The notes under the pieces: model-generated
What the model was told of the DNA's origin: nothing
What the model saw: the letters and a program-made list of their open reading frames with translations, nothing else
The model's database searches: none
Assembly: GCA_030549335.1 (NCBI GenBank)
Contig: CM060191.1
Location: forward strand, 58,105,947-58,169,946
DNA from: Pontederia crassipes
Lineage: Eukaryota > Streptophyta > Magnoliopsida > Commelinales > Pontederiaceae
Direction of reading: 5' to 3'
Length of the DNA stretch: 64,000 nt
Shown: piece by piece, positions 1,969 through 64,000 of the stretch
Layout of the letters: each line of letters begins with the position of its first letter
How positions within the stretch are numbered: position 1 is the first letter of the stretch
Program-made: the position numbers and the translations under genes

Positions 1969-3360
1969 GCTTCTGATCTGATAGCCGGAACAACAAGGAG
2001 AAGAAGAAGGCAGGCGACTGTACCGCGGCCTTATTGCGAAGTTTTGACAGCCGACCGGAAGGAAACCATGTACCGCTGGAGGCCAAGGGTTTTAAAACCT
2101 ACGAAAACGCATTTCATATGCACGCTGCTGGGATGGGCAAAGGAACGGGGTTTGCAAAGGATCCCGCAAAAAGGTATTTATTTATTTATTTATTTTTAAA
2201 AAGGTATCAATTATGCTATTGCGTGAATTCATGTTTGATATATATATATATATATATGTATGTATATATGTAGAGAGAGAGAGATCATGTTAAAAATTTA
2301 TAACGGCGTTCATGTTAGAGAGAGAGAGAGAGAGGTTATGTTAAAATTTAAAAGGTTATAACGACGTGTCTTGTCCGATAGAGAGAGATATGTTAGAATT
2401 TGAAAAGTATAACGACATATCATGTCCTAAACAACTTCTACTTATATTTCAAACGATGGAACTTGCAAATTTTGTACAACGCTTCCTTTTATTTCTCAGC
2501 GTAAAAATCTTCTTAAACACATTCAACTATATGGAAGGTAAATTCAACAATTTCTTGGAGCCTTTTTAGTATGTGAACAGTAGATGGATTTCTCAGAAAA
2601 AAAGATAGGAGGGCGTAGATATTCTTGTTATGACAGAGCAATACATGAAATGCGAGCTGATGTCATGACAACCTCGATAGAATTTGGCGTCCGGAGAGAG
2701 TTGTCATCTTATGGTTCCAACTAATGAGGGGGGCAGTGCGTTGTTATATTCTTATCTTAACTGTAAAGAAAGACATATTATTGAAGTCTTAGAAAGCTCA
2801 AAAAACAAGTGAAGACTAGTTTTGCAAGAAAAGATGGTTAAATCTTTTTTCTCCATGAAAATAAATTATGCTTTGTCGCAAAACTGGCCGTTTAACGTGC
2901 TACGTATTCGACACAACACGACACAACCATTTTGAACAAAGACTTAAAATGAATCGAAAATTTCAATAGACGAATTCAATATTATACTTGCGATTCACTA
3001 CATTAATCCAATATTCTTTACAACTATTATAAAACACAGTTTACGAAATTAGAAAGTCAACAAAGGTGACAAGTTGCGACCAGATAAAGAACAAGTACTT
3101 TCTTCCACCGAAAGAAACAAAAGAATAACTAATTTCTGACAACAAGCCATCGAACACCTGGATTAAATTGTTCTCTCGTCTTGTGTGGTGTACCAAAATT
3201 TATCTTTCATTTGAACTTTGAAGAATAAACCTGGAGAAATGGTTGCCATTACAAGATACCAAATCCTATAAGAGATTATCCTAGTTATTCCTACTGACAT
3301 TGAATATTTAATTTCTACGCTACACAGTTAGTGTCAGCTCCAAATTGCATCCAATACAAT
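1969..3360. other. Intergenic: 5' flank of the KJC-like gene and 3' flank of the HOS15-like gene
   Basis: No coding sequence recognised. It holds the upstream region of the KJC-like gene, a TA microsatellite near 2238-2258 followed by several short GA runs (2272-2390), and AT-rich sequence up to the HOS15-like stop codon. Short ORFs here have low-complexity or unfamiliar translations. Confidence 0.6.
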
Positions 3361-6300
3361 CTACATCCTAAAATCCATGACACAGATTGTGCTACTGGCA
3401 AAGCAGGCGGCAAGTTTGTCGCCTTCCCTGTTCCAGCAAACTTCGAAGATGCCACCACGACCCCTGTAAGTCTTCAAGATCCGCCCATCTTTAACAGACC
3501 ATATGTGCACAGACTGATCGAGTGATCCACTTGCCAGATACTCACCATTAGGGCTGAATGCAACTGAATACACAGCTTGCCTGACATGTCGAGATTGAGA
3601 AGTTAGGAGCAGAGGATCCATGGTGAAGTGAGCAAGCCACCAAAAAAAACGAGTAGTAGCATACTTATGACCATCCAAGCTGTTCAAAAGGCGCCCTTGC
3701 TCCACATCCCACAGTTTAATAGTTGAATCAAAAGATGCACTACAAACACGCAGAAGTTTCTCGAAAAAAAAAAACACGCAGAAGTTATATGACAAAAAAG
3801 GATCTCGTCAGGAAATTTTGATTTGAACCAATGACTAATATGGACAGGTTTGAAGAGATTCTAACTTCATCATCCACATCACAACATATAAAATTTGTGA
3901 ACAAGACGGGATGAAAATTTTGATAGAATACTATAATGAGCTGCTGACCTCAGCAATTCTTGAGTGTCGACACTTCAAACTTATAAAGTACTTGCTAAAT
4001 AATGGTGCAAAAAAAGAGAATTCTTGGAAACCTAATGGTCAGTCGGGTACTAGAATTTGCCTGCCACTTTTTATGGGTTGAAAAAAAGACTTATTCTCGT
4101 CGTCTCAAACATAAAGGCGATTGATTAAAACTTGCGTTGGGATTGAACGTTAATCTCAGCAGACAATTGAGCATCGGATGGCTATGGAAAAGAAGTGCTT
4201 ACCTTGCAAGAATTAGTTGCTGATTCGGGTTATTGGTACCTGGACCCGTGGGACTCCATTTAATAGTATATATTTCCTGAAGCAAAAATCCATTTTTCGT
4301 ACAGTTGTCTCACTTAAAATAGAAAAAGTATTCAAACAAACAGAATGGTTGACTACCTTGACATGATCCCTAAAATCATGCATACATCTGTCCTGCTTTA
4401 GATTCCATATCTGCATGGAAAAATCACACAAGTATTTAGCGTCAATTTCAAATAAAAAATCAGAATAAACATTAAGAAAAAAAGTCTAGAAAAAAACATT
4501 ATAACATTCTCCCCCTAAAAAACCTAATAATAAGCTCAACAAGATGGCCCATTCAATAAGTAGGAATCAACCAAAAAGGCTGATGATTTTCACATGAAGG
4601 CTAGAGAAGAGTTGTTTTCACAACAACTAAATCAATGAACATTATATCCAAGACAAAATTGCAGGAAACCAGAAACCCAACAGAAGAAAATTTGAGTACA
4701 ATTACAGGGATGGATAAAAGCTTAAGGTTTAAACTTTGGGAAAAAAATTTAGAGGGACTTTGGAAATAATATATGACGATAACATTACATGTTTAACTCC
4801 GCCTATGTTTTATAGCCGGTCCCAAGCCCGGATAAAGGAGGGTTGTGTTAGGCCCCGACAGCCAGCGTAAAACCTTGTCGAATCGCATGAACATGGATCA
4901 ACGAATAGCGTCGTATGATCCATGTAGCCGACCCCACCTAGTGGGATAAGGCTTTGTTGTTGTTGTTGTTATTGATAACATTACATGTTTCCTTGGTCTT
5001 TCTGACTAACGCAATAAGTGATAAAGTAGTCCACAACAGTTTTTTTTTTCTCGGGGAGGTGATAAGATATAACATGAGCCCACAACAGTTCTCAGAATCT
5101 TCCTCAAAAAACAATCTTAGAATGAAACATATGATTAGTAAAAAGCCAAGAAAGATTTAAAAAATGTTGCTGAGAAAAAAAACACTTTTGGCAGACAGTG
5201 ACATTGTTGCATATCACAAAAATTCAGAGAATGGCTACTTGCCTTTGCGGTCCCATCGTCAGAACATGAAGCCAACAATGACCCAGTTGGATCCCACTTA
5301 ATTGCATTAACTTCTCCCTGAAATGGATAGTAAAGTCTAAAGGAATGGGCCAGTTGGATCTCTGCATTAACTTCATGTTGAAATAGATAACAAATTGTAC
5401 AAGAACTATGCCACCTAAATAGGAACATATGAAGATGACATTTAGTCCGGTAACTAAATAACAACTAAATAGGATTTCAGTCAGTAATATCTTTTTTCAG
5501 CAAGAAATGGCAAAGTCCATGCAAAGTTCTGAATCTCTAAAACGAGCTTACAAAACACATCAGAGCACTATAAATAGCTTCAAGAATAAAATATATCACT
5601 AAATAACAAAAGATCAAATATTAAGATTTTTGGGGAGGGAAGATCGAAGTTAAGATTACTAACATTAGAATTTAAAAAAAAAAACAACAATGACAGGAAG
5701 AGAACACACCTGGTGCCCAGCAAATGTCTTAACTGGGCGAGTGTCACCCACTTTGCAAACATAAATCATACTATCGGTAGAGCATGTTGCAAAAGTATTA
5801 TTGTTCCTCCAATCAACATCAAGTGTTGGAGCTAGATGTCAAAACAATCAAAGTTCATAATACTTGACAACTCGTTTAAACATGAGACTACAAAAAAAAT
5901 AGACGAAACAAGAAAGAACCCACCTGAATGGAATTCAAATTGCTGCTTACAGTCCCATGTTTTTGTGTCCCAGACAATAGCAGTTTTATCAACACTACCG
6001 CTAAGGAGAAAATCACCCTTCTTGTTCCATTTCAGTGAGAAGATAGGTCCCCTATGTCTGATTAGAGAATTCTTCAGTTCACCTGTGGTCACCCATAAAT
6101 TTAAAGACTAAAATAATTGAAGATATCTCTGGCACTAATCTATACTATATGAGAAATATAGTAGTATGAAAGGAGATGATTACACGTTAGAACATGCATA
6201 TGCTGCCATATGTTCAAAATTAATTTAACAATTAGAATAACTTTGGAAAATGAAATATAAGCTTAACACTAAATGAGGAAAAAAAAATTATACGTGGAAC

Positions 6301-28506: not shown

Positions 28507-30486
28507 CACACTAACTTCTCCAACCAAACCGCTTTCTAAACTACTGCCTTTATTTTTCTTTTCCTGTAAGCTGTAGCTGCCGACAGTGCCGCAAAAATCG
28601 GGATTTATTCTCCTCTGAAATTGCGAAGGGGGTCGGCGTGGAGGCCACGTGGACCACCATCATCGGAACGCGACGACGACGACGGCAGTCGAATGGGCGG
28701 CCCTCTCCGTCGACCAGACCGCATGCACACGGGGGCCGCCCTCCGTCGCCTCGTGCATCGCCTCGACAGCCCCTCCGGCAATGGTGCTCCGGTGGGTTTG
28801 CTGTCCGCTGCTCGGGACCCACCACCTCGCGATCATGCCCACGAGGTAATAGGAGTCCCACGTCAGGCCCACTTTTACGACCCATTAGCGTTACTCAATA
28901 CATGGACCGTGTCATGGGCCTCCATACTGTCACCAGTCGTGACCTTACCGTAAGACATACGAGTATATAATATGTGAAACCCTCTCACACATCTTTTTTT
29001 TTCTCTTTCCCCTTCGTCTCTTTTTCTTCTGCCTTGTATTTTCTCACTCTTACCTCTTTACTCACCGACTCAGGGACGAACCCAAGAATTTTTCAAGAGG
29101 GAGCAAATTAATATAATAATAATAAAATATTAATTAATTATTAAAATATTAATTTTAAAAATATTAATTTAATAAATTTTAACTTAATTTAAAAAGGTCA
29201 AGTATTAAAATTTTAAGTATTGCATACATATAATGTATATATCTACATATTATCTAAACTAATTCATTTTACTCTAATTTAGGAGGAGGGGTGGGGGAGG
29301 TTCATAACTAACATTTAATTTATATATATATAATATATACAAGGTCCCCAATTATACACATTCTCTATGTTATGCAAGTTTTTTTTTTAGAATAAAGAAA
29401 TGTGCGGGTCCACACATATGGTGCAACACACCTCCAACTCAATAAAAATATTATTCATTTTGAGTCAGTCTTAACGAATTTAAAATATGGTAGGTAAAGA
29501 AGGTAACTACATATAAATCAATGATCATATTTATATTTTGTTCATGTGAGACTATTGATCAAATATGCTTAAACATCAGATCGTTACAATCTTTCCACTC
29601 AAGCGAGGGTCCGTAATGGCCCATGACCTATGTTTTTCATGAAAACGTGGCTCAAGTGAGCACACGAGATCGGTTCTATATCATTCTATAACAATCCCAA
29701 TCCAATCATTTGAGCAATCGGTCCGTACGAATTTAAAACACGTTCTAAATGATGAAGCAGATAGCTACATATAATATGGATAAATTAAATATTATCCATA
29801 TTACAGCTAGGTCGGGTTTGCTGTCTACGCAGAAAGCTTTTATAAAATAAGGGGTGAAAATATTTGCTTTTGGTGTTGGGAATAAATTACTAGGGGAGAG
29901 AGAGAATTAACCAATGGAGGTTCGAATAATTGATAAGGAGTCCTTTTTTCGTTTGAGCGCTAAATGAATTTAGATGTTTGTTCGATCCATACTGGCTAAA
30001 AAAAGACTTAATTGTTAAATAGCTATTTGTATAAAAAAAACTTGAAAAGCAATAAAAGGAATTTTTTAGTTTAAATTCGAGAATTCTTTTGTTAGGAAAT
30101 CATTCTTTTTTTATTATGCTGTGAGTTGGATTAAACATGAGTTATTAACAGTAAGTGCAAAATTACTAGATCCACGTGATTCTGCATGCACCAATCATTA
30201 TTTCAAGTTGTATCACATCTATTTATCGTCATATCACACCTTTTGCAATTTCGAATGGAGGGTTTAATAAAAATGGACTAAGTTTAATTAGGATGGAATG
30301 AGTTTAAAAGTTTTACACATTGTTTGAATATAATTTTTTAAAATTTAACCTTGGTTGGTGTTCATAAACACATCCTTAACTTAAAATCAAACTGATCAAA
30401 TTAGTAATTTTGAAGAGATTAAAAATAATTATTCTCATTTTATTCTTATTTTTTTCAATGAAACAAAATAAATCTCAAGAATAAAC
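28507..30486. other. GC-rich island with promoter-like features, then AT-rich DNA
   Basis: 28610-28960 is a GC-rich island with a G-box core (GCCACGTGG at about 28641), runs of GACGAC, and a TATA-like TATATAATATG at about 28963. A pyrimidine-rich stretch like a plant 5'UTR follows (28990-29050). No coding sequence or known family follows; from about 29080 the DNA is AT-rich repeat-like sequence. ORFs inside the island on both strands give Arg/Pro-rich translations that I do not recognise. Nothing further seen up to 30486. Confidence 0.4.
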
Positions 30487-30971
30487 ATTCATTACAAGAA
30501 AAAAATGGTCAAAACCGTCTGTAATTTGTCAAAAACCGTCAGAAATTATGATTTTTGACGGGTTTTTCGACGAAACTGATCTGTCAAAAAAATGGACGTC
30601 GCAAAAAATCGGTTTTCGATAGTTGAAAAAAATTCGTCGAAAGTTCTGACGTTCCAAAAGTCCGGCGGCCCCAACCGTCGAAACTTTCGACGGTGGCAAC
30701 CGCCGGAACATTCGGCGGTCGTGGAAACCGTCGAAACTTTCGGCGGTCGTCGCAACCATCAAAACTTTTGGCGATCGCAACAATCGAAAAGATTCGGCAG
30801 TCGCATAAGTTTTTGGCGGCCGCAACCGTCGCAAAGAATTTTTAAAATATAAAACAAATAGGTGGCCGCCCGCAATAAGATCCGGCCGTTTGGCGGTGAT
30901 CACGCCGCTGCTGGCCAGATCAGGCAGCCTGGCTAACGGATCGACCGCTTGGCGACCGAATCAGACCGCCT

Positions 30972-31090
30972 GGCGGCCGATCAGGCCGCGATCGGCCAAA
31001 TCACGCCGGCTGGTGGCCGATCAGGCCGCAGTCGTCCAAATCACATCGGCTGGCGGCCGATTAGGCCGCGGTCAGCCGGCAGGCAGCCGA
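30972..31090. repeat. 40-bp GC-rich minisatellite inside the CACTA element
   Basis: Units of 40 bp begin GGCGGCCGATCAGGCCGC at 30972, GGTGGCCGATCAGGCCGC at 31012 and GGCGGCCGATTAGGCCGC at 31052. The third unit degrades after about 30 bp. Confidence 0.85.
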
Positions 31091-31116
31091 TCGGGCGCTC
31101 GTGGCCAGATTCTGGC

Positions 31117-31118
<2 letters not shown>

Positions 31119-31182
<64 letters not shown>

Positions 31183-31282
31183 TGCCGGTGGGTCGTCGTC
31201 CGGGAGGTCGTCGCACTGACAAAATTGGAGAGGGAGAGAGAGAGGAGAGAGGGAAAGAAGAAGAGAGTGGAGAGAGGGAAAG

Positions 31283-31317
<35 letters not shown>
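31119..31317. repeat. (GA)n and (TA)n microsatellites inside the CACTA element
   Basis: An uninterrupted GA run of about 60 bp (31119-31179) and a TA run of about 34 bp (31284-31317) flank a GC-rich spacer and further GA-rich sequence. Confidence 0.95.
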
Positions 31318-31319
<2 letters not shown>

Positions 31320-31573
31320 GTAGAAAGATAGGAAAGTGGGAAATGAAAAAAGAAGCAGCGGGAGAGTGATTTTTTAATTACCGACGGCCATGACCATCGA
31401 AAACTTAACAAATATTAATAATATATATTATTATGATATATATGAATATAATATTTAATTACTTTTTAAAGTTACTGAGGTCGAGATCGTAGAAAATTAT
31501 TTAATTATAATAATAAAATATTGCTTACATATATACAATATTTATTTTTTAGTATACCGACGGTCCAATTTAG

Positions 31574-31927
31574 ACGGTTTGGACTATAGCTAATTATATT
31601 AATAAAAGACTCCTTATATTATATTATTTTTCACTTACTGACGGTCAGAATCGTCAAAAATTGCGACGGTTTGAACTATCGCTAATTATATTAATAAAAG
31701 ACTCCTTATATTATATTATTTTTCACTTACCGACGTCGAAAATTGTGACGGTATGAACTGTCGCTAATTATATAATACTTATATTATATTATTTTTTACT
31801 TACCGATGGTCTGAACTATCGAAAATTACGATGGTTTCAACTATCTCCAAACATATTAATAAAATACTCCTTATATTATATTATTTTTCATTTAAATTTA
31901 CCGACGGTCTCGACTGTCAAAAATTGC
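31574..31927. repeat. Four tandem AT-rich units of about 80-100 bp in the CACTA element
   Basis: Units start GACGGTTTGGACTATAGC, GACGGTTTGAACTATCGC, GACGGTATGAACTGTCGC and GATGGTTTCAACTATC. Each contains CTTATATTATATTATTTTT and ends near GTC(AG)AAAATT. The repeats carry the same GACGGT motif seen at the element ends, so they probably extend the subterminal transposase-binding region (inference). Confidence 0.85.
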
Positions 31928-32135
31928 GACGGATAGATATCCGTCGAAACTTTCGACGTTCCTAATCATCAAAAAATAAAATAAAATTAGATAACTTATT
32001 ATTTTTATTTTCGACGGTTGTAACCGGAAGTTCTGACGGATATCTATACGTCGCAAAATCCGTCCCAAATTGCGACGAATTTCTTTTCATCGGAAATCGC
32101 CCGTCTAAAAATCATAATTTTCTTATAGTGATTTA

Positions 32136-32938
32136 GCCTATGTTTGGCAACGAACTTTTGCCCAAAACTAGGCAAAGTTCTACCAAACAACGTGTAAAAT
32201 GGGAACTTTTTAAGTTCACGATCACGTGATGACGAGGCGACCTTTTTTCACAAAAGTTCTTGAGAGAAAGTTCTTCACTCTTGCGAGAACTTTGCAATGT
32301 GCTAGAACTTTCCCTTTCTCTCACGCTTTCTCTCTCTCCCTCTTCCCTCTCCACTTCCCTCTCGCTTTTTGTTTCGTTGCGTCGGGTTGATGAGGTAGAG
32401 CTCGTAGAGTAGTTCGGCACCATCATCGTTGTCAAAGAAGGCGAGGAGATCTGGGTCGAATGGAGGACACGAGGGAGTTGCAGACTTGGGCACCAATGAC
32501 GATGCGGTTCTGGTCGATGCCAGAGATGTCAGTCACCTCCTCGATTGTGGGGGCCATGAAGCCATTGACGAAGAGGGCCGTGATGAGCGATGCATACTCG
32601 TGCCAGAGGGACTTGTACTGGGATGGAAGCGGGGATGGGGGAGGGCAAAAGGGTTGGTAGACCTTAACACTGGGGGATGCGAGTAAGGGGGGAGACTGGG
32701 GAGCTTGGAGGCAGAGATCGGGCGGTGGCGGTGTAGGGCCATGGTGGACTTGGGTTTGTGGAAGAGCAGACAACGCTGGTGGTGGTGGGGAGAAGAAAGG
32801 AAGAAGAGGCATCTCCTTCTTGTCAAAAGTTCTCATCAACGATAGAACTTCATCAAAACATTGAAGCCGAACTTCGTTGTCTTGTCACTTGGTTTCGAGA
32901 ACATTGGGGAACTTTAGTTCCCCAATCCAAACACTAGC
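32136..32938. mobile_element. PIF/Harbinger-type small element carrying a host gene fragment
   Basis: The ends GCCTATGTTTGG and CCAAACACTAGC are inverted repeats flanked by TTA at 32133-32135 and 32939-32941. Both subterminal regions are rich in AAGTTC/GAACTT motifs (32155-32320 and 32825-32930). The middle is unrelated to a transposase and matches RAF1 coding sequence on the minus strand. Reading it as a gene-capturing (Pack-type) element is an inference from this structure. Confidence 0.7.
32375..32839 (-). pseudogene. RAF1: Rubisco accumulation factor 1 (RAF1) 5' fragment, broken
   Basis: On minus, a Pro/Ser-rich transit-peptide-like start is followed by VYQPFCPPPSPLPSQYKSL, WHEYASLITALFVNGF, PTIEEVTDISGIDQNRIVI and GAQVCNSLV. 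After a one-base frame change come FDPDLLAFFDNDDGAELLYE and LYLINPTQR. This is the N-terminal alpha-helical region of the chloroplast Rubisco assembly chaperone RAF1 (usually about 430-450 residues). About 16-20 residues are missing between YKSL and WHEYA, a frameshift occurs near 32460, and similarity stops near 32375, so it is not a working gene. It lies wholly within the small transposon at 32136-32938. RAF1 genes are usually intronless, so genomic and cDNA origin cannot be told apart. Confidence 0.8.
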
Positions 32939-32941
32939 TTA

Positions 32942-34018
32942 CCAAACTTAACTTCCCTTAATCCACGAGTCAATTATACGAATTGCGTTTCAACTTTGTT
33001 TCAATATTTGGTCTTTCAACTTCATTTTATAACTAAACTATCTTTTTTAAATTTTGCAGGCAATGTCCTCATTATCAATTTTTTTATTACACTACCGACA
33101 TGGCACAAGAAAATAATATAAATAAATAAAAACTGGAAAAAGGCGACAACCCTCGTCGGAGACTAAGGAAGGGGAGGGGGGCGTGACGCGGATAGTCAAC
33201 TTATGAATTGAAGTTAACAAATAGGATAATTACCATACCTAAAGTTGAGGGACAACGCGTGTAATTTACCACCCAATCAATATATTAAATTTTGTATACA
33301 AATAAAGAGTGGGCTAAAGTAATTCAACACATCCCATTAATTTATATCCAAACATAATTTATATAAACACTTACCACACTCAACCTTATCAACCCTCCTT
33401 ACACCACCCTAACTCACCCCTCAACTTATTTATAGGAAGCTCCAAAATGGACTATATGAAAAGATAAAAAGAGATCTTACAATTAATTTTTGATTTTTAA
33501 ACAATTTAAGTCGATAGATAAGTAAAAGAGAAAATATACATTTTTTATATGAGTATAACAAGATTTGAACTCAAGACACTATGGCCCCGGTTGGCATCTG
33601 ATCAATGCGTGCTCCCATTTTTTTTATTGCAAAACAAGGTTGGATTAGCTTTGCGGGACCCACCAATAATGATTGCACAAACAATAAAATAGATGGAGAT
33701 TTCATATTCTTTGTGTAAGGGAGAACAACTGCTCTCAGATGGATTAGCAGCATGGGATTAAGAGCGAGGTTACAATATCTATATTCTTATATAACAATAT
33801 TTCATCCAAACGGGCCTATATTCCTCCTTTAAAAGAGGAATACATTTATTTAATATATTATATACATGGACTTGACCAAAATAACACTATCGAATAATTG
33901 TTCGGAGGAAAGTCCAAAATGAGCTATATGAAAATATAAAAAGAGATACTACAATCATTTTGTAAAGATAATGTGAAAAGTACATGTACTATCAAGAATT
34001 GACTTTTGTAAAACTTAA
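32942..34018. other. AT-rich intergenic DNA with repeated blocks and a small MITE
   Basis: No gene. A block TCCAAAATG(G/A)(A/G)CTATATGAAAA with following AAAAAGAGAT occurs twice (33442-33490 and 33912-33955). A MITE sits between them, listed separately. A third sequence, TTTGAACTCAAGAC near 33565, is shared with 43073-43085 on the other side of the Copia element. Confidence 0.5.
33593..33816. mobile_element. Small MITE with GGCCC ends
   Basis: A 224-bp element starting GGCCCCGGTTGGCATCTGAT and ending ATCCAAACGGGCC. It is flanked by TAT at 33590-33592 and 33817-33819. No coding capacity. Confidence 0.6.
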
Positions 34019-44415: not shown

Positions 44416-45813
44416 TAAGGCTCTATTTGGAGTGCTCTAAATTAGCGGATGCATTAGCGTTTAGAGGATGAAAAGTTATTATCATTGTTTGGTAAACTTA
44501 AACAGTAAACAGCGGTTAACGTTTTGATAAAAAAATGAAACGCTTAAACAACTGACGTATAGCGGTCTTCAAATTAGCGGTTCACCTTTTTTTCCACTTT
44601 AACCCTTTTATCAATGAGTCATGTGCATTTAAAAGGTATTAGTTGGTTGTACCAAAAAACATTTCAGTTAGTCATCAACAATTTCCTCGCTTCTCCAACT
44701 AATTTAATTCCATTTGAATGTACGTTCTGTTTGGCAAAAATTATTTTTCTATTTTCACTCAACAGCTACACTTCTTCCATCCGTTACACTTTTCTTTGCC
44801 ATTTATATTGCATCACACCATCATTTTCTTCAACCTTTTATCAACTTAATGAATTAGTAGTGTTCCTTGAAAGTATATGTGGCATAAGAAGAAATAATTT
44901 TCTTGGACTCTACAGGATTGAGGTTAAAAGGTATTTTTTCTACACTGTACCAGATTGAGGTTAAAAGTATTTTTTATCCAATGTGTTTCATAGGAGAGAG
45001 ATTTGTATTGATCTATTAACTTCTAACTCCATCAAGTATACGTGTTTTATATTCTATATCATCCTCATGCTGTGTTATTGGTTTTTTTTATTTTTGTGCA
45101 TGCTTTTTAGAGTATTTTTATGCATATTTCTATATAAGTTAATGCACTTTTTAAAATTTGAAGTCCATATATGTTGTATGGAATTTGTTATTTTATTGTA
45201 AACTATTTAAATTTTGGGTACCTTTGTAAGATCCAACTTTGCCTTCGTATTCTTATCACACCGTGGAAGCAATAAACATGTCAGTCATGATTGGAGACAC
45301 GTATATAATTTTTGTGTCAATAATCATGACATTTTAAGATCTCATATGCTAGAAAAAATGAAGAATATTAGTGCACTTAACATCAGCTGAAAACATAGAC
45401 TATTAACTCATTTGCATAAAAAAATGTATTTTTATTGCATATTGACAAGTATATGATATTTGACCAGATGCTTTCCATAAATATCTTCCATTGATCTTCT
45501 AAAAAAAACAATCTTCCATTGATATATACTTTGGTTGGTCATAAAGTTGTTTAACATCAAATTTGTGTATATGATGGATTAGATTAGTTGAATTAAATTA
45601 TGATTTTTTCTTAGAAGCTCATATAATGTGTCTTATCCTAATGCATTTAAGATGCATCTTTCTCATCTATTTTTTCTGTAATAATCATGCATTAATTAAA
45701 TAGTGCATCATTACATGATTAGGATATGAGTACACTAAAAAATATTTTTTTTATTAATTAATGGATTATGCATCTATCTTTTTTTTATTAAAAAGAGTGT
45801 TTTTTAATTTTAT

Positions 45814-46975
45814 TTGATGGTTGTCTTGTATAAGATGGACACGACTAGTGAAAAAAATAAGATCAAAGGGGCTTTTCTTTGGAACAATGAAGAAACCATT
45901 ATGTTTTGTGATATTTGTCTCGAATACATATCACAAAGTGGACGTGGACAATCATTCAAATGGCGTGTTATTCAAGATAAATTTGAAGAAAAGAGTAAGC
46001 GTAAATGTCGCTTTCAAAGCTGCAAGAATAAGTATGATTCTATGAGAAAAAATTGGTTGCTTTGGAAAAGTTTGAAAGGAAATGAAACAGGTTTAGGGTG
46101 GAATCCTATTACTGGAACACTTGATTGTTCAGATGAATGATGGGAAAGAAAAATTAAGGCTAGTTTTTTTTCTAAAGATAATCTTATTTTTCACATAATT
46201 ATGAGTAATCTTATGTTACACTTCGAATATTATTTAACTAATTAATCTTGGGGTCTATACTCTATCTTAGGAAAATAAAGATGTCAAAAAGTTTCGTGAA
46301 AAAGGTTTAGACCCACTTCTTGAAGATAAATGGGAACAATTATTTGGAGACTCAGTTGCTAATGGAGAGAATGTTTATGCACCATCTATGAATTCTCCAC
46401 TAGGAAATATACAAGAATTTGTGAACGTTGAAGAGCAAACAAATAATGAAGAAGAAGAAGATAGAGATGCAGTACAAGAAGAAGAACAAGCAGAAATAGA
46501 CGGTGAAGAATATGAATATAGTAACTATATAAATACTTTAAGGACAGGTGGTGACACATTTTTTAAAAATTTTGTTGAAGAGGTAACAGGAGAAAATCAA
46601 AATAGGACTAGAATGCAAACACACAAAGATGCTAGAATAAATAAAGAAAAAAGTAAAAATCCTATACAAATGAAGTGTAAGAGAAGACAATCAGCAGGAT
46701 CTGCAATGTTGACTGAACACATTAGCAAATTAGTAAATTGTGTTGAAAAAGTCAGTGATAGAATCAGTGATTCTAGTGTTGGGACTAGTGTAAACACTCA
46801 ACCATCAGTATCCAATGTCACTAATGCGATGGAAATTCTAAACCATATGCATGCCATGGAAGGTTTGAAATGGGTAGTCAAATGTGGTGTTATACTGCAT
46901 AATTAGTCACAAATGCAGACATGAGAGATGTTTTTTTAAATATGAAAGATGACGAAACTAGAATGTCTTGAATAA
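45814..46975 (+). pseudogene. PIF/Harbinger ORF1: Myb/SANT-like DNA-binding protein, broken
   Basis: Two exons. Exon 1 (Met at 45814 or 45835) gives AFLWNNEETIMFCDICLEYI, FKWRVIQDKFEEKSKRKCR, QSCKNKYDSMRKNWLLWKSL and GWNPITGTLDCSDE. A TGA at 46138 stands where the family has Trp, followed in frame by WERKIK. After an intron (acceptor near 46270) come FREKGLDPLLEDKWEQLFGD, an acidic stretch and a Lys-rich region. A frameshift follows near 46860 and degraded DMRDVFLNMKDDETRM near 46920-46960. The intact partner protein binds element ends and works with the transposase (family knowledge). Not functional as read. Confidence 0.85.
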
Positions 46976-47120
46976 GATTTATGTTTACTACTATGAAGGA
47001 CAAGTGAAATTATCTTTCAATATTTGTAATTTTTTATAATAATTTTTTAGCTTTCATTTATCTATGAGATATAACATGCATTTTTAATTTAGATGTTGTT
47101 TGATGATTAACATGTGAGTT

Positions 47121-48444
47121 ATGGATAATGAGGATGTTCAAAGTGATATTATCACTCTAGTCGCATACTCCACGACTACTATAGCTACCTATTACTATAA
47201 ATATATTTATAAAGAACCATGCATGACTTCACTTCATTCAAGAGAGGTATGCATGAGAGAAGTGCTAAATGGACATCCTATTCGATGCTTGAATGCCGAG
47301 TCAAATATTTTTATTAAGTTATGCGAGGAATTATCATCAAAATATGGGTTAAAATCAAGTAAAAGAATGTCTATCATTGAATAAGTGGGTATATTTCGTT
47401 ACACACTTGCATTGAACCTTTCAAATAGAGATGTTGGTGAACGCTTTCAACGTTCAGGTGAAACTATTAGTAGAACATCTCATGAAGTTTTGAATGTTGT
47501 ATATGGCAAAGAAAGATGCTTAGCACGCGATATTATAAAGCCTAAGGATCCATAATCCAAATATATTTCATTTCATATAGCCAATGATGAAAGATACATG
47601 CCATATTTTAAGGTAAGACTTATTATATTTGTACTTGTATTGTTCAAATTTTATTTTAATTATAACATGAATTATTTTATTAGGACCGCATTGGTTGTAT
47701 TGATGGCACACATGTGGCAGCTTGTATTCCTGAAAGAGATCAATTACGCTATACAGGAAGGAAAGACATTCCTACATTTAATATCATGGCTTCATGTGAC
47801 TTTGACATGTGCTTTATGTTTGTGTCTGCTGGGTGGGAAGGATCAGCACAAGACACACAAGTTTTTCTCCATGCAATTAACACTCCTACAATGAACTTTC
47901 CAAAGCCGCCAGAAGGTATACCTTTTTCTACATCCAATGTAAAATATTTCAGTCGTGAAAATATTAATATGTTTATCTTTGAATAGGTAAATATTATTTG
48001 GTGGACAAAGGATATCCTGATAGGAAAGGATATTTAGTGCCGTATCCAAGAATAAGATACCATCAATCACAGTTTCAACAAAAACCACCAAAAAGTGCAG
48101 AGGAAAAATTTAAACGAGCACATTCATCCCTTCGAAGTTGTATAGAAAGATCTTTCGGAGTTCGAAAAAAGAGATGGAAGATACTTCACCAGATGTCACA
48201 ATTTAGTGTTGAATCACAAATAAAAATTATAGTAGCTTCATTTACACTACATAATTATATTCGTATTAGCTCGCCAAAATATCCTGTATTTTATATACTC
48301 GATAAACATCTCAATTTTATATTTATCGATGACCTACTTGATGTTCAAGGTAGTTCATCAAATAATGAAAATGTAATAGAAAGATCGGTGGAAATGAGTG
48401 ATATTCGTAATGAAATTGCACATTTGCTGTCGAATGTAAGATGA
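47121..48444 (+). pseudogene. PIF/Harbinger transposase (DDE_Tnp_4), two nonsense codons
   Basis: Three exons: 47121-47612, 47684-47915, 47987-48444, with GT-AG borders. Exon 1 is interrupted by TAA at about 47381 (SIIE*VGIFRY) and about 47553 (IKPKDP*SKY). The catalytic residues are otherwise present: the first Asp in GCIDGTHVAACIP, the second in GWEGSAQDTQVF, the Glu in SCIERSFGVRKKRWKIL; LVDKGYPDRKGYLVPY also fits the family. The helix-turn-helix portion precedes (DVGERFQRSGETISR). Apart from two nonsense positions the frame is open, so decay is fairly recent. Confidence 0.92.
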
Positions 48445-48929
48445 TGCAATTAATTATCATGATTTGATGAAAAATTTTATTATTATTGTCTCTTATACAT
48501 GCACTGCAACAAATATATTTTAAATAAATTTATATCCTTATCGTAATTATAATTATCAAATTTACTTCAAGGATAAACTATTAATTATGAATACTTTTTA
48601 CTTTTTACTACGATCCGAACAAATTTGTATATTTCTTTTAAAATATTTATGATACAAAATGATTAGTGTAGTTCTAAAGAATCAAATTAATTTTTTTGTA
48701 AGAATATTTAATTTTGAGGTTGCAAAAATAATCCAAGTCAAATTAAATAAGTTATGAATTAATTAATTTATTATATGATGTCCTTTTATGTCTTTTTATA
48801 TTCAACAATCTACTCAACCCCTAAATATATCAAACACTTATTTATAAATTTCACAATTGAACCTCTATCCGCTAATCGCTGATTAATCGCTATCCGCTTA
48901 TCAAATCGTTAGAAATGCCAAACAGAGCC

Positions 48930-52395: not shown

Positions 52396-55300
52396 ATGGC
52401 CGACCAGAGAAGAGGATCAGCGTCCAGCGAGTATGAAGTGTATAACGAAGAGGATGCCGATTTTATTCCTCCACCTCCATTAAATCCTCCTCCGCCTACC
52501 CCACCTAAGCTCGATTCGCCACCACAGCAAGGACAACGGACCCCCATCCCTTGTACATTGCAGGAGTTTTGGAGGTCGAAGCCTCCGACGTTTAATGGGG
52601 AGGGAGGAATCGACATTGCTGAGCAGTGGATTGAGATTTGGAAGAAAAGTTCGATATCCTCGACGTCCCGGAGCACAAGAAGGTCCTATTCGCTGGAGAT
52701 ACTTTCCAAAGAGATGCCAAGAAATGGTGGAAGGCAAAGAAGGCCACCAGCTTTCTGGGAGTTAGAATCGTAAAATTGAGAGACTTCTATAGAGCATTTA
52801 AGACGCGTTACCTCCCGTCCTTCTAGAAAGACTTGAAGCAGAAGGAATTTCTGCATCTAGAGCAAGGAACTATGACTGTGGACCAATATGTGACCAAGTT
52901 CGTCCGGTTGAAGAAATACTCTAAATTGACCATGGACGAAATGGAGCTGGCGAAATGTTTTGTAGACGGACTGACGCCCTCACTGAGATCCCAGACCAGG
53001 CCAGGGAATTGTAGAACCCTGGATGAAGCGATCAGTCTGGCAACCCTGACCGGGAGAGACCATCAGGATCTCCAGAGGGAGAAGAAGACTCAGCAGAATG
53101 TAGGACAGAGTTCTCACCAACAACAGCAGTTTCGTGAAAACAACCGACAACACCAACGACGGGATAACCAGAACCACTCATATTCTGCGCCTCAACAGAA
53201 CTACCGTCCTCCACAACAACAACAACCCTACCGTCCTCCACAACAAGCTCCTTCCCCACCGCAACAACAGCAACAGCAGTGACCCCCTCAGCAAGGGCAA
53301 AGACGCACAGCCCAGCAACAGAGGCAACAACCTCCTAGAGTTTCTCAGGCATCACCCGCACAAGATGAGCGAGTTTTATGCAACACATATGGCATGACTC
53401 ATGCTGGAGAGTGCCGAATGAAGTTTGGGGCATGCTATTACTGCGGAGGAATGGGACACATGACAACGAGTTGTCCGAGACGTGGACAACAACAGTTGGT
53501 ACAAGGAAGGCTCTTCAACCTGGAAGAGGATGCTCCCCAGAATGACGCTGATGTCATTCGAGGTACGCTGTTCGTAACTGATCTACCTACAAAAGCATTA
53601 TTTGATTCTGGTGCTTCACATTCATTTATATCAGAAGAGTGTGTCAAAACATTAGGGTTAAAAGCAATGAACTTAGAGCAAAAAATGAATATATTGACCC
53701 CACAAGGCACCATCATTACTACAAAGTATCTCTCCAATGTACCTATAGAGATAGAGAAAAAGAATCATCCTGCCAATCTCATCATCATCCATACGAGATA
53801 TTATGATATAATTTTAGGCATTGACTGGCTAACCACACATGATGCTTCCATCCTGTGCAAACAAAAGAAAGTGATTATAGGCACACAGAGTAAAGATAAA
53901 GTAATAGTCAGGGAAATTGCACAGAAGGAACCGAAAATCATAGTATCCGTCATGAAGGCACAGAAGCTATTGCAAAAATGATGTAGAGGTTATCTAGCCA
54001 GTATAACCAAAACAGAGGAGCCAAAGAATACTCATCAAGACATAGACGTGGTGAGAGAATTTCCTGATGTATTCCTTGAAGATGTTAATGGTCTACCGTC
54101 CAGAAGGAAGATAGACTTACGTATCGAGGTGACACTCGTAACTGCACCAATCTCCAAAGCCCCATACCGTATGGCTCCAGCAGAGATGAAGGAATTGAAA
54201 GATCAGATTCAAGAGCTATTGGACAAATATTTCATCAGGCCCAGTGTTTCGCCGTGGGGTGCACCAGTCCTTTTTGTCAAGAAGAAGGACGAATCATTGA
54301 TGCTTTGTATCGACTACAGGATGTTGAATAAAGTCACAATAAAGAATAGGTACCCGCTACCTCGCATCGATGACTTATTTGATTAGTTGTCCAAGGCAAA
54401 GGTGTTCTCAAAGATCGATCTGAGGAGCGGATACCATCAGTTAAGAGTGACAGAAGAAGACATCCCGAATACAGCAAGGTATAGGCATTACGAGTTCATG
54501 GTGATGCCGTTTGTGTTAACAAATGCTACGGCCGCATTCATGGACCTCATGAATCGAACTTTTCATGAACACCTGGATAAGTTCATAATCGTCTTTGTGG
54601 ATGACATCCTCATCTATTCGTCAAGTATGGAATAACATAGAGAACATTTGAGGATTGTATTGGAAACTTTGCGGGCAAAGAAGCTGTATGCGAAGTTTTC
54701 CAAATGTGAATTCTGGTTAAAACATATGATGTTCCTTGGCCACATCATATATAAATATAGAGTTGCAGTGGATCCGGTAAAAGTAGAAGCAGTGTCCAAT
54801 TGGACCCAACCGAAGAATGCCTTCGAGATTAAGAGTTTTCTTAGTTTAGCCTGCTACTATAGACGATTTATCAAAGACTTTTCCAGAATAGCACTGCCGC
54901 TGACCAAGCTTATAAGGAAAGGAGAAAAGTTCATCTAGTCACCCAAGTGCGAGGAAAGCTTTCAAGAATTAAAAGAACGGCTAACTTCAGCGCCAATTCT
55001 GACGTTACCATCGGGCAATGGTGGTTACGTGGTGTACAGTGATGCTAGTGATACGGGATTGGGATGCGTACTAATGCAACATGGTAAAGTAGTGGCATAC
55101 GCATCCAGACAGCTGAAGAAGCATGATGTCAATTATCCAACACATGATCTCGAGTTGACAGCAGTAGTGTTCGCCCTCAAGCTTTGGCACCACTACTTAT
55201 ATGGAGAAGAATTTGTGGTCTATTCAGATCACGAAAGCTTGAAGTATGTATTTATACAGAAGAAACTGAATATGCATCAAAGGCGTTGGATGGAGTTCCT

Positions 55301-56888
55301 AAAGGATTACGAGTTTGCCATCAATTACCAACGTGATAAGGCAAACTCCGTAGCCGACGTGCTCAACAGAAAATGGAAAGGATCCTTAGCTTATATGCGT
55401 CTACGACGGTTCGAACTCATGGAAGAACTGTTCAAATGGACACCAAGAGTGCAGCACGATGGATCACTAATGATGATGCAGAGAATAGTGCCCGACATGG
55501 TAGGAAGGATTATAGAAGCACAAGTTAAATACTCGGAATATCAGACGATGATGATAAAGACCAGCCTAGAGACGACCAATTTCAAGGCCTCCACGGATGG
55601 TGACATAAGGTACCGTGATCGTTTGTGGGTACCGAACAACCCTGAACTCCGAAGAGAAGTGCTAGACGAATGTCATAAGTCCGAGTTTGCCATCCATCTA
55701 GGGAGTACAAAGATGTACAAAGATGTTCAGAGAAGTTTCTGGTGGTCAGACATGAAGAAGGATATAGCCGAGTATGTCTCCAAATGCATAGTGTGCCAAC
55801 AAGTCAAGGTGGAACACAAAAAATCACAAGAAACCTTGAAAAGTCTGGGTATCCCACAGTGGAAGTGGGAAAAGATCTCGATGGACTTTATCACAGGCCT
55901 ACCTCGGACTTTGAAAGGGCATGATGCCATTTGGGTTATAGTGGATCGACTCAATAAATCGGCTCACTTCCTACCCATTAAGATAAAATAATCTCTTGAA
56001 AGCCTCATGGATTTATATGTGCAGGAGATTGTCAGACTTCACGGGATCCCATCAGCCATTGTGTCTGATAGAGATCCCAGGTTCACATCGAAATTCTGGA
56101 AGAGTCTTCAGAATGCCTTTAGAACAAGGCTTCGGTATAGTACCGCCTTCCATCCTCAGATAGACGGTCAATCAGAAAGAACGATTCAGACACTGGAGAA
56201 TATGCTGAGAGCACGCGCTTTGGATTGGCATGGTAGTTGAGACAAGCACCTCCCTCTTATAGAGTTTTTCTACAATAACAACTTTCAAGCTAGCATAGAG
56301 GTGTCTCCCTTTGAAGCATTGTATGGTCACCCATGTCGTTCTTCGACATGTTGGGGCGAAGTTGGAGAAAGAAAGATCCTGAGCGCAGAATTACAGAAGC
56401 AGACGCAGGAGTATACGGACAGGATGAAACTGATAAAGAAAAGAATGAAGTCTGCTCAAGATCGTCAGAAGGCCTAGCGGATAAGAAGCGCCGAGAACAT
56501 AAGTTCAAGGCGGGTGACCAAGTTCTACTCAAAGTCTCCCCCTCCAAAGGAATGATGCATTTTAGCAAACGGAGAAAATTGAGCCCAAGGTATGTAGGCC
56601 CTACCTCTAGCCTACTCAAAAGTACACAACGTCTTCCATGTCTCCCTACTTCAGATGGACAAGCACGACTACGCCAACGTGATTCAAATTGAGGAACCAA
56701 ACCTCAAGGAGGATCTGACGTATGAAGAACAACCCACGGAGATATTAGAGTACCAAGAACATCAACAAGAGAGGAAGAGAATAGCACTGATCAAAGTGGC
56801 ATGGAAGCACCACCAAGGAAAGAAGGCAACTTGAGAAGTAGAATCGGAAATGCGAGAGAAATTTCCTGAGCTTTTCGGTAAGCCTTAA
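52396..56888 (+). pseudogene. Chromovirus gag-pol, defective
   Basis: Gag starts MADQRRGSASSEYEV at 52396; the frame shifts near 52640 and continues with FAGDTFQRDAKKWWKAKK and EFLHLEQGTMTVDQYVTKF. A Gln/Pro-rich stretch and the zinc knuckle CYYCGGMGHMTTSC (53436-53477) follow. Protease: LFDSGASHSFIS (53596-53631). Reverse transcriptase: [33 protein letters not shown] and the catalytic [10 protein letters not shown] (54594-54623). RNase [21 protein letters not shown] (55029 on). Integrase: an HHCC finger ending [10 protein letters not shown], then [20 protein letters not shown] and VSDRDPRFTSKFWKSL. The chromodomain is at 56721-56888, with its conserved Trp changed to a stop. In-frame stops also occur near 53281, 52825, 54386, 54635, 54938, 55991 and 56240. 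Confidence 0.93.
56721..56888 (+). other. Chromodomain at the integrase C-terminus
   Basis: YEEQPTEILEYQEHQQERK then RIALIKVAWKHHQGKKAT, stop in place of Trp, EVESEMREKFPELFGKP and TAA at 56886-56888. This is the chromodomain of plant chromoviruses, which directs integration toward modified histones (family knowledge). One nonsense codon breaks it. Confidence 0.88.
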
Positions 56889-59248: not shown

Positions 59249-60148
59249 CTATCTCGCTCCCAGCTCCCCGTGCAGCGCCTTGCAGTACAGGTACAGCACC
59301 ACGGTCGTCACCATCCAGTATAGCAGCAGCACGGCCGTGATGGCCGACCCGACCACGGTCTTCGCCACCACCGGCAGCGCTCCGATCCAGTCCCGACCCG
59401 CCGCATGCACCTCCTCGCGCCCCAAGCTGAGTCCCCAGAGCGTGAGGCCGATTCCGGCGCCGAAGAAGAGTGAGAGGAGGAGCGACGCCCATCGCATCCC
59501 CTTCATCAAGTCCGCGCTCCGCCAGAGCGTCGCGAAGCCCCAACTCGGTTCCAGCACCGAGATGACGCCGGCGAGAGTCCAATTGAGCTGGAACAGGAGG
59601 AGGCCGACGGCGACGGTGGCGGTGACCAGGGCGACAATGACTGAGATCGGGAGGTGGAAGAAGGAAAGAACCTTGAAGAGGGAGGCGAGGAGGAGGGACG
59701 GGAGGAGGAGAGCCAGGGCGAGGGTGAGGAGGAGCCGGCCAAGGGGAGGGAAGAGAGAGCGGAGGGCGTGGAGGATCTTAACTGGGCGGCCATAGAAGCC
59801 GCGGAGGACGCTGTTCGAGACCGCGGCGAAGGCGGCGAGGAGGAGGGCGATGACGGCGGCTGCATAGAGGACGGCGAGGACGGCGGAGGCGGCGGCGGAT
59901 GGACCGCGACGGAGGAGGAGGAAGTAATTAGTGGACGGGCGGTGGCCGGAGGCGGACGAGAGGAAAGGGAGGAGGAGGGGAGGGGCGGCGACCAAGAGGG
60001 AGGAGAGAGGGAGGAGGAAGAGGACGGAGAGGGAGAGGAAGTGGCGCGAGTGCGCTGCGACGACGCGTCGCGACTCGAGGACAACGCCGGAGAGCATCTC
60101 CGGCCACAGGGAAGAGGACGAGGTGGCCGCTACGGCAGCGCCGGCCAT
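59249..60148 (-). CDS. Intronless six-span plant membrane protein (DUF7847-like family), intact copy
   Basis: 299 residues, single exon, GC-rich. Start MAGAAVAATSSSSLWPEMLS; the first in-frame Met after upstream sequence that is frame-shifted in this copy. Hydrophobic stretches suggest six membrane spans: about residues 37-62, 90-117, 138-160, 166-190, 224-246 and 262-288. The C-terminal half carries VISVLEPSWGFATLWRSADL and ends VVLYLYCKALHGELGAR, the pattern of a plant family of uncharacterised membrane proteins (Arabidopsis At4g19950/At5g44860 type, recalled from memory). The Ala/Leu-rich spans and lack of catalytic motifs give no biochemical role. The promoter at 60149-60560 is duplicated next to the second copy. 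The Glu/Gly-rich ORF on the opposite strand is a mirror of this gene. Confidence 0.82.
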   Translation of the reverse strand: MAGAAVAATSSSSLWPEMLSGVVLESRRVVAAHSRHFLSLSVLFLLPLSSLLVAAPPLLLPFLSSASGHRPSTNYFLLLRRGPSAAASAVLAVLYAAAVIALLLAAFAAVSNSVLRGFYGRPVKILHALRSLFPPLGRLLLTLALALLLPSLLLASLFKVLSFFHLPISVIVALVTATVAVGLLLFQLNWTLAGVISVLEPSWGFATLWRSADLMKGMRWASLLLSLFFGAGIGLTLWGLSLGREEVHAAGRDWIGALPVVAKTVVGSAITAVLLLYWMVTTVVLYLYCKALHGELGAR

Positions 60149-61503
60149 GAGGGCGGCGGCGGTTCGTTCTGGAATATGGAAGAGGTAGGTGGTTTCGGAT
60201 GTGGGGACTGCTCCGTTGGCTCTTTTTGTTGGCTTCGGGCGTTGCCTTGCAAGCGAGAAAAAGCCGCTCTTTAAGGGGATAGGAACAAACTACGAAGTGA
60301 AGTGGTGACGATTTATTGATGTCATAATGATGGAGATAATAAAAAAAACTCCATGTTTGTATTTGTACTAACGCACCGTGCTTGGTTTAAAATTAACGAG
60401 AAAATTTGAACTTAACCTCTTATATCGTTAAGAAAAACAATTACTTAAAATTTGATATTTTTTTAATGTAGAAAACTAATATGATTTTTTCTTTGCGTTA
60501 AAATCGTCCGATAAATTAGATGTGAAGTTGTTAAAATATACGGTCTAAATAATAGAGCGGTAAGATTAGGTTGCGGTTTTCCTTGAAAGAATAAAATGAT
60601 ACCCCAATTTGGCTCTCAGGAGGCCATCTCAAAAATGGTTCAATCTGAATTGGGAATGCCTCAAACGACTCAACCTAAAACTAATCTAACTTGATCTAAC
60701 CGATTTGTGTCTTGATTCCTGTTTTTTCTTGCTATATTTATGGATCTCCTTTGTGCATTAAAGAAACATTTCTTTTGTCTCGAAATGGGGAAATAAATCT
60801 CCGAAGAAACAAATGTGAGACAGTTGTATCGCACATGTCAGATATTTGATAAACCAAAGATGCCACATATATTAAAGTAAAAATAATAAAATGAAAAAGA
60901 TATCGAAAAACACTTGCATTATTATATAAAAAGTGGATGTGAAAATGCTGAGAAAATAAATTGCAAAGCTCCCGATTATTATGGGCCTCATTTCGGTCCA
61001 TGGACAGCACGTTCTCCGAGACCCAACTATAGGCTGGGCTTTTAGGGAAACCCAATATATCATAATGGGCTGTGATTAGGTAATAGTGGCATACAGATCC
61101 AAAACTGAATTAATTCTTTATGGGCTGTACAATCTTTTTGAACGAAGAAGCCACAATCCACGATCCACTAGGCAATACTTTGAGCTGCGATTCTCCAAAG
61201 AGATTCTGGAATTTTATTTTGCTTCTGTTTGGGATTATTTTTTTACGAGTGCAAATGTGCAATTGAGGTTTAATATTATTACACTGCTTATATTATTTTA
61301 TAGGATTTAATGTTTGTATAAATAAATTACCTATTAACACATAAATTATCAACTTTTAAATATGAGATTGTGATTTATTAATAAAATTATTTTCTTAAGA
61401 GATATTGTTGACAACTATCTAATAGTGTTTGAGTCCATAAATGCTTGTTTTAGTAGAGCTACTTAATTCCATTGGTATCTCTTGACATATATGGAAGGTC
61501 ACA
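60149..61503. other. Upstream flank of the membrane-protein gene
   Basis: 60149-60460 is nearly identical to 63677-64000, the promoter of the second copy. 60600-61500 contains no recognised gene or repeat; the short ORFs show no family. Confidence 0.6.
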
Positions 61504-63185
61504 TGTAATGCTTCCGAATCGACCTCCGCCACGTGGCGAAAACTAATTTGGAGACGCTACGACATGTTATGACTTTGACCATAATACATATCTCAGTAAA
61601 AAATCGAGACACATTAGCGGAAGAATAATAAAATAAAAGAGATAAATAAAAATATAACTTTAATTAGCGAAAGTCTAACAAGTGGTTATATCATTTCTAA
61701 TAAATAAAATAAAGTTTTACATCATGAAATTATAATGCGGAAGGGAAAAGAAAAAATCTATATAAGAACTAATAAAACCTATGGTTCATGTGTTCTCTTG
61801 CCGTCAGAGCTTTCTCACCATACACCTACTCCACCTTGTCACTGGCATGGTCCTGTGGAAATCAGACACAGAGGAAGAGGTTCTCCCGTAAGCTTTACAG
61901 CCTAATGAGGAACCACACAATATACAATGCATGACATAAATATAATAATCAGAAATAGATAATCAAACTTGAAAAGATAACATGGCAGTATCATAAATCA
62001 TTATAAGAAATAATTAAGAGGATTTAATAAATCATGAGAGTCAATAATACATATTAACTTGGAATCATGTCATACTTGTAAAACATAACGATAACTTGAC
62101 TTGACTTAATCATGCCTCTTGATCTTGGTTATTATTAGAAATTAGGGTGATCTTAAGTGCCTTTAGTTCTTGGGGTATGCCGAGCAGACGATACTGTCTT
62201 GTGCGAGTCAATGGGTGATCAAACCATGACCAAGGGAGCTACCCTTATCTTGCTGCACTTAGTTTGGATTGGCAACCCATTATTAATCTTTCATATGAAC
62301 TTATTAATCACTTTTAATAACTTATGGCTCTTTGTTCTTTGTTCCATGGATACGATAAGATCAATAAGAAATAAATCAATAAGAGAATAGGTCTTGAAAA
62401 ATCAATGAGGAATCTCTGTGGAATCAAAAAAATAGAATCAATTATATATAAGTAATATCTGGATAAAAGGAAAATAATTAATAAATATAGTAAAAGGTTT
62501 TCTAGGAATCGGTCGACCGATGGTCTATTGATCGGTCGATCGGTCTATTCAGATCGGTCGACCGGTTGACTGATTCGGACTGATCGGGTTGATCGATCCG
62601 TTCAGTTGAACGGTCGACCGGTGGGTAAGGATCGGTCGATCAGTTACAGGGATCGATTGACCGGTCAACGTATGCAGAAAATCAGCAGCAGCCAGGTTAT
62701 CGGTCGACGTCCAAAAAAGTTGCAGACTTTCGAAATCCATAAATTCTTCGATGCAATCTCAACTTAACATAGTTCCTATCTCCTAGCAAATCAATCACAC
62801 AACAATAGAACAACAGACAATTTCAAAGAATTCAGGAAATCAAACAATTAAAATGATAACTTGAACCCTATTCTTATTCTTTTTTTTTTTCATAATGATT
62901 AGGGCATGAATTGGGATAATTCACAGATCATGCAAGGTGATTTCGATTCACCCACCTGTTATCGCAATTAATTCCTCTTTTCGTTCGTCGAAAATCGATT
63001 AAACAACACCCCTATTGTCCTATGTTTTCTGCCCTATTCTTCTTCTCTATCGCTGCCTGCAATCTAACGAAGATGGCTGTAGGACGGGCGTGTCGATCAT
63101 GGGATTGCAGTAAGGGGAGGGAAAAAAAGATCGACCTCCGGCAGCATGCTCTCTAAACAGCAGCGTGGCCGCAGGGATCAAACAT
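61504..63185 (-). repeat. LTR of a related Ty3-type family, opposite orientation
   Basis: On minus it would run from TGTTTGATCCC (63185) to GCATTACA (61504). It contains the same kind of GGTCGACCG array (62505-62705), a region with TTATTCTTCCGC (61618-61630 on plus as its inverse) and a TAGCGTCTCC...CCACGTGGCGGAGG end, parallel to TAGCGCCCTC...CGTGGCAGGAGG of the chromovirus LTR. No internal region or partner LTR is seen here, so it is a solo or cut LTR. It has no matching flanking duplication. Borders are my estimate. Confidence 0.6.
62505..62705. repeat. Third GGTCGACCG palindrome array
   Basis: About nine copies of CGGTCGACCG, CGGTCGATCGGT and close variants, as in the chromovirus LTRs but with different spacers. 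Confidence 0.85.
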
Positions 63186-63772: not shown

Positions 63773-64000
63773 GCGAGAAAAAGCCGCTCTTTAAGGGGAT
63801 AGGAACAAACTACGAAGTGAAGTGGTGACGATGTATTGATATCATAATGATGGAGATAATAAAAAAAACTCCATGTTTGTATTTGTACTAACGCACCGTG
63901 CTTGGTTTAAAATTAACGAGAAAATTTGACATTAACCTCTTATATCGTTAAGAAAAACAATTACTTAAAATTTGATATTTTTTTAATGTAGAAAACTAAT
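63677..64000. other. Duplicated promoter region of the truncated copy
   Basis: Nearly identical to 60149-60480, including TTTAAGGGGATAGGAACAAA and CTAACGCACCGTGCTTGG. The duplicate continues past the window end. Confidence 0.85.

Follow-up and report, generated by a model that had tools for sequence, protein, structure and literature searches.

Gene capture by PIF elements has already been described, and the RAF1-bearing element reported here is a clear further example. Transduplicated genes in PIF elements of grapevine were described in 2008 (Benjak et al., PMC2528002), a 2022 survey of Pack-PIF elements in maize and rice included a capture model based on the fusion of neighbouring elements (Gisby and Catoni, PMC8903248), and gene capture is treated in a 2026 review (PMC13317346). 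The original prediction for this locus held that such capture is seldom described for PIF elements, a statement that the grapevine report and the maize and rice survey have made out of date. In the account given of it, the maize cluster 18 of Zm-Pack-PIF (PMC8903248) resembles the family described here in consisting of short, multi-copy PIF elements with shared ends, with and without a gene piece, and in having a subgroup that holds a piece of a second gene. The cargo is about 580 bp here versus the 163 bp given for cluster 18, its identity to the donor is 80-88% versus 97%, and, unlike cluster 18 as described, the sister elements here carry pieces of at least three identified genes. Pifvine-3 (PMC2528002) is likewise described as a member of the PIF superfamily with transduplicated exons and introns, some of them common to several copies, and with target duplications that are mostly TAA or TTA; it is long and codes for transposase, whereas the elements here are MITE-sized and without transposase. 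Pack-MULEs, too, are non-autonomous and hold captured coding fragments. The TIRs of MULEs are long and their target duplications about 9 bp, in contrast to the short imperfect TIRs and 3-bp duplications of the elements here. Judged by titles, none of the papers listed in a literature search dealt with RAF1 capture.

The DNA analysed, referred to as the window, is a stretch of 64,000 nt of Pontederia crassipes (contig C9, 58,105,947-58,169,946), and searches covered 1.13 Gb in 43 contigs of a single plant genome. RAF1 is a nuclear gene that encodes a Rubisco assembly chaperone. The RAF1-bearing element at window 32136-32938, the window copy, is a real and well-supported Pack-PIF, with the following features.

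32133-32135, no strand: left target-site duplication TTA, read from the sequence and present as a single TTA at the homeologous empty site
32136-32938, plus strand: non-autonomous PIF/Harbinger-type (Pack-PIF) element of 803 bp, recognized by its ends, family matches and target duplication
32136-32367, plus strand: left terminal and subterminal region, common to cargo-less MITEs and to elements with other cargoes
32375-32809, minus strand: RAF1 coding fragment, captured and decayed, lying antisense relative to the plus strand, from Pfam, solved structures and alignment
32823-32938, plus strand: right terminal region common to the family, from family alignments
32939-32941, no strand: right target-site duplication TTA, read from the sequence and from the empty-site comparison

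The window copy begins with GCCTATGTTTGGCA, ends with ATCCAAACACTAGC and has TTA on each side. The inverted ends that had been predicted are present at these borders, as an imperfect TIR in which 9 of the 12 outermost bases agree, and a left-end pattern matched once in the window and never in 100 shuffles. A 150-codon stop-to-stop frame on the minus strand (32432-32884) contains Raf1_HTH (Pfam, E=3.2e-13) and matches solved plant RAF1 structures (E=2.6e-18 and 3e-18), confirming the predicted identity of the fragment, and the RAF1 match is confined within the TTA borders. Scans of the window for tRNA and Rfam families gave no matches. Elsewhere in the window, pieces of a Ty3-type retrotransposon (aspartyl protease, RNase H, integrase zinc-binding) lie at 53283-55991, and two frames that look similar by eye and apparently encode a membrane protein lie on the minus strand at 59249-60289 and 63047-63790. 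These two frames gave no Pfam match and are perhaps a local duplication with a truncated second copy.

An intact RAF1 locus, which the original prediction had proposed looking for, was found on C6 near 3.84 Mb, where a frame of 462 aa (L029, 2148-3536, minus strand) carries Raf1_HTH, Raf1_N and RuBisCo_chap_C. A profile search of the genome with RuBisCo_chap_C matched at this locus alone (2 candidates scored, 1 match). The fragment at 32375-32809 aligns to donor positions 3001-3496, numbered on the reverse complement of L029, or about codons 14-179. Relative to the donor, the window copy has four deletions of 13, 1, 45 and 2 bp, three of which shift the frame, in agreement with the internal deletion and frameshift first noted. 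The supposed transit-peptide-like start needs correction, as the donor start codon is outside the captured piece, the fragment starts at about codon 14, and the ATG near 32812 on the minus strand is out of the RAF1 frame at that point.

Seventeen RAF1-bearing copies were examined (the window copy, L020-L028 and L030-L036); their identity to the donor is 80-88%. Under one or both of two alignments, all 17 start at donor 3000-3006, and 11 of them reach the far end at 3579-3581. The full captured span of coding sequence is thereby about 580 bp, covering roughly codons 14-207. The common start point and common far end indicate one capture of about 580 bp followed by amplification, and a single RAF1 capture with later amplification and internal loss is the simplest reading. 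Five copies (the window copy and L020-L023) stop at donor 3492-3496 and form one clade (support 97/99), L030 stops at 3527, and six deletion-type copies (L031-L036) are without roughly donor 3150-3416 and form another clade (support 97/96). By eye, the stretch lost at the left junction of the window copy's clade is edged by a shared CGCT. The breakpoint at donor 3496/3497, common to the five-copy clade and to L041, was considered as a sign of nested insertion and dropped, since a CGCT-edged deletion can arise alone.

The family extends beyond the RAF1-bearing copies, and all its counts from genome searches are lower bounds. A DNA search gave at least 63 matched pieces from the best 40 of 157 candidates scored, and a 29-base left-end pattern allowing up to 3 mismatches was found at 52 or more places in the genome, while the reversed control matched nowhere. 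RAF1-free elements with these ends, for which the original prediction had also proposed a search, were recovered as the sister MITEs L043, L044, L051 and L052, which are 333-346 bp long and keep the left region (about 215 bp) and the right region (about 115 bp). L045 resembles them, its right end being unrecognised by the script used. A search with the cargo-less L051 returned at least 40 matches, some partial, from the best 40 of 115 candidates. The family thus has the features by which Pack-TYPE elements are recognized: its members are multi-copy, share ends with and without cargo and have no transposase of their own, and host coding sequence, here RAF1, lies between the TIRs while an intact donor (L029) is present elsewhere.

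The sequence to the right of the window copy, from its TTA onward, matches C10 at 20.20 Mb. At this homeologous site (L066) the left side corresponds to window 30354-30489 and the right side to window 32939-33428, and the two join at one point, reading AAACATTTACC, with a single TTA. The predicted TTA duplication is therefore seen both in the window sequence and by comparison with a site that carries one TTA and no element. The C10 site is without two neighbours, the RAF1-bearing element and the CACTA-like element adjoining it at window 30490-32130. The latter has the ends CATTACAAGAAAA and TTTTCTTATAGTG and ATT on both sides; its name was given by eye, and with 2 mismatches allowed, matches to the end pattern by itself do not exceed what chance would give.

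Four anchors (24.8/58.1, 28.3/54.3, 39.7/41.7 and 58.1/20.2 Mb) show C9 and C10 to be collinear, in inverted order. The insertions L026/L027 and L028/L030 are each present on both chromosomes within kilobases of aligned surroundings, which places the capture before the C9/C10 duplication, and further shared insertion sets were found on other contig pairs (L024/L025, L034/L035 and L031/L033). The window insertion is most simply younger than the C9/C10 duplication, while its loss from C10 may be an alternative. The right flanks of five duplicated pairs gave K2P values of 0.025-0.084, whereas the window-copy flanks gave higher values against C10 (0.149 right, 0.111 left); genes in the flanks of the duplicated pairs may explain their lower values, and for that reason no date is given.

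These comparisons bear on the possibility that the fragment is a RAF1 pseudogene on both sides of which unrelated MITEs inserted by chance. Its decayed state, beside an uninterrupted donor frame like that of its source, would suit such an origin, but 17 copies hold the RAF1 segment between the same ends, the internal breakpoints are common to copies whose flanks differ outside a few duplicated sets, and the homeologous site has one TTA and no element. Such a pseudogene origin is accordingly extremely improbable, and the reading as a Pack-PIF is retained.

Target duplications were read in the 23 copies with both ends readable, of 40 rows tabulated. The 3-bp duplications were identical in 16 of these and not identical as called in 7. 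The TTA/TAA type accounts for 7 of the 16; the other nine are AAA, TTT (one duplicated insertion present in three copies), CTT, GAA (two copies), ATA and TAG. The window copy, with TTA/TTA, has the 3-bp target duplication of PIF/Harbinger elements. Left out of the count were L021 (TAA/TAA by eye) and L040 (TTA/TTA if its left boundary is moved 3 bases). Two elements with transposase pieces have ends nearly those of the family, a similarity that is short in both. The first, L070 on C4, contains DDE_Tnp_4 pieces and reads TTA, GGCCATGTTTGGCA ... ATCCAAACAGGGCC, TTA. The second is a decayed PIF/Harbinger element at window 44419-48929, 11.5 kb from the window copy, reading TAA, GGCTCTATTTGG ... 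TGCCAAACAGAGCC, TAA in an end scan run without a shuffled control; it contains a Myb/SANT-like piece (45808-46137) and DDE_Tnp_4 pieces in two frames (47684-47983 and 47983-48444).

Left ends at three transposase loci were family-like in L070 and L072 and absent in L071. No strictly paired 14-base ends (up to 2 mismatches) were found around the three, the L070 pair having 3 mismatches and the L072 candidate pair 4, and the genome searches turned up no element that combines the long shared subterminal regions with a transposase. An autonomous partner near the family was also sought by comparing 52 left-end matches with 150 of 940 DDE_Tnp_4 candidates, the closest being 184 kb apart; as the decayed PIF element lying 11.5 kb from the window copy was absent from the DDE_Tnp_4 list, this negative result carries little weight. 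The family's link to PIF transposases lies in the terminal 12-14 bases. As far as sequence can indicate, the short ends and 3-bp duplications support its membership of PIF/Harbinger; they do not show which transposase moved the RAF1-bearing family.

Sister elements carry other cargoes. L037 holds a piece of the chloroplast ATP synthase gamma gene, AtpC (PF00231, E=2.9e-11; chloroplastic gamma chain, E=9.4e-27), and six AtpC-bearing copies (L037, L049 and L056-L059) match the gene at L062 within about 1439-1928. Five of the six end at L062 1923-1928, and L049 is cut by its locus end. At L061 and L062 the AtpC gene frame runs uninterrupted for about 386 codons when a TTG is taken as its start, and L062 was identified as ATP synthase gamma by profile scan (E=1.1e-92). 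A third, longer AtpC-like copy, L055 (C9, 3.74 Mb), is 84% identical over about 1.07 kb, and no element ends were found around it. About 230 bp of a PPR gene is held by L038 and L041, with a source frame of 431 aa at L068 and further, tentative PPR matches at L067 and L069. L041 (C6, 17.36 Mb) is chimeric and forms an eighteenth element with RAF1, having an 83-bp RAF1 piece beside the PPR piece. A fourth cargo is common to L039, L040, L042 and L047; three of its frames (two from L047, one from L040) gave no Pfam match, and a genome search with it gave 21 matched pieces from 20 candidates, with L073 as a possible candidate donor.

The captured pieces lie in the 5' half of the coding frame or barely beyond it (AtpC to about 53%). 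All are GC-rich, with 0.685, 0.659 and 0.641 for RAF1, AtpC and PPR, compared with 0.671, 0.643 and 0.471 in the rest of each gene, so that the PPR piece alone differs clearly from its source. The names of solved relatives mark RAF1 and AtpC as proteins of the chloroplast, and PPR proteins usually belong to organelles; with three genes, no capture bias toward a type of gene can be claimed.

The fate of the RAF1 cargo was followed from its differences to the donor. Over all 17 copies, private differences at codon positions 1/2/3 numbered 90/82/81, a count based on one local alignment per copy in which the six deletion-type copies aligned badly across their deletion and indel counts were inflated. 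Codon-position and indel figures were therefore recounted in the 11 remaining long copies and in separate pieces of the six deletion-type copies. Private differences in the 11 long copies are evenly spread over codon positions (66/61/70), while differences found in at least 60% of them are rich in third positions (6/5/20), as expected of freely drifting copies in which the shared changes would be mainly silent changes of the RAF1 gene. Transitions in the long copies occurred at 280 of 1427 CpG sites versus 166 of 2135 other C/G sites.

As the window copy has a 150-codon stop-to-stop frame, it might be supposed that the captured exon and element sequence are translated together as a new small protein, and the donor 3416-3581 piece, in which none of the six deletion-type copies has a frameshifting indel (one 3-bp indel in L034), could be read in the same way. 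The lack of frameshifting indels in this piece goes against a blanket statement of decay. Five of the six nevertheless have in-frame stops there, the 3001-3155 piece carries a frameshifting indel in all six, and each of the 11 long copies has three or more such indels, so that every one of the 17 copies carries at least one frameshift. Together with the out-of-frame ATG of the window copy and the even spread of private changes, these observations make such a chimeric peptide highly unlikely. The cargo has neither the third-position excess since capture nor the maintained open frame of functional coding sequence, and a protein function of the RAF1 fragment is unlikely.

A role at the RNA level was also considered, in which small RNAs or antisense transcripts from the family would target RAF1 (and AtpC). 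RAF1 is antisense relative to the left end of the element, and in some copies the exact matches to the gene are long (37 bases in L025, 33 in L022, 32 in L028, 31 in L031 and 30 in L024). The window copy, by contrast, shares at most 18 exact bases, and the copies decay evenly over codon positions; we regard regulation of this kind as unlikely. In a broader version, to which we give similarly little credence, the MITE family would have repeatedly collected 5' portions of organelle-protein genes (RAF1, AtpC, PPR and the fourth cargo), and small RNAs from its better-conserved copies would regulate them. If this were true, a PIF-type MITE family would be a distributed regulator of photosynthesis genes.

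It is very probable instead that the window copy is a Pack-PIF derived from a single RAF1 capture and amplified by PIF transposase in trans, with a passive and decaying cargo. The starting point would have been a non-autonomous, Tourist-like PIF/Harbinger element about 340 bp long. Between its left and right subterminal regions it would have acquired, in a single event, about 580 bp of RAF1 coding DNA, perhaps by fusion of two neighbouring insertions or by template switching during gap repair. Copies would then have spread through the genome with PIF transposase presumably supplied in trans, and a later branch including the window copy would have lost about 85 bp of RAF1 and a short stretch at the left-side junction. 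The window copy appears to have gathered further deletions and to have landed at a TTA beside the CACTA-like element, most simply after the C9/C10 duplication, and its RAF1 piece would be decaying as passive, non-coding DNA; the CpG excess suggests that the copies are methylated. For annotation such elements are a trap, because domain searches score their fragments as RAF1 or ATP synthase gamma. In this family the donor, capture breakpoints, amplification, sub-segment loss, cargo-free relatives, other cargoes and an empty site are visible in one genome, and families of this kind are useful for testing the routes by which small cut-and-paste elements gain genes.
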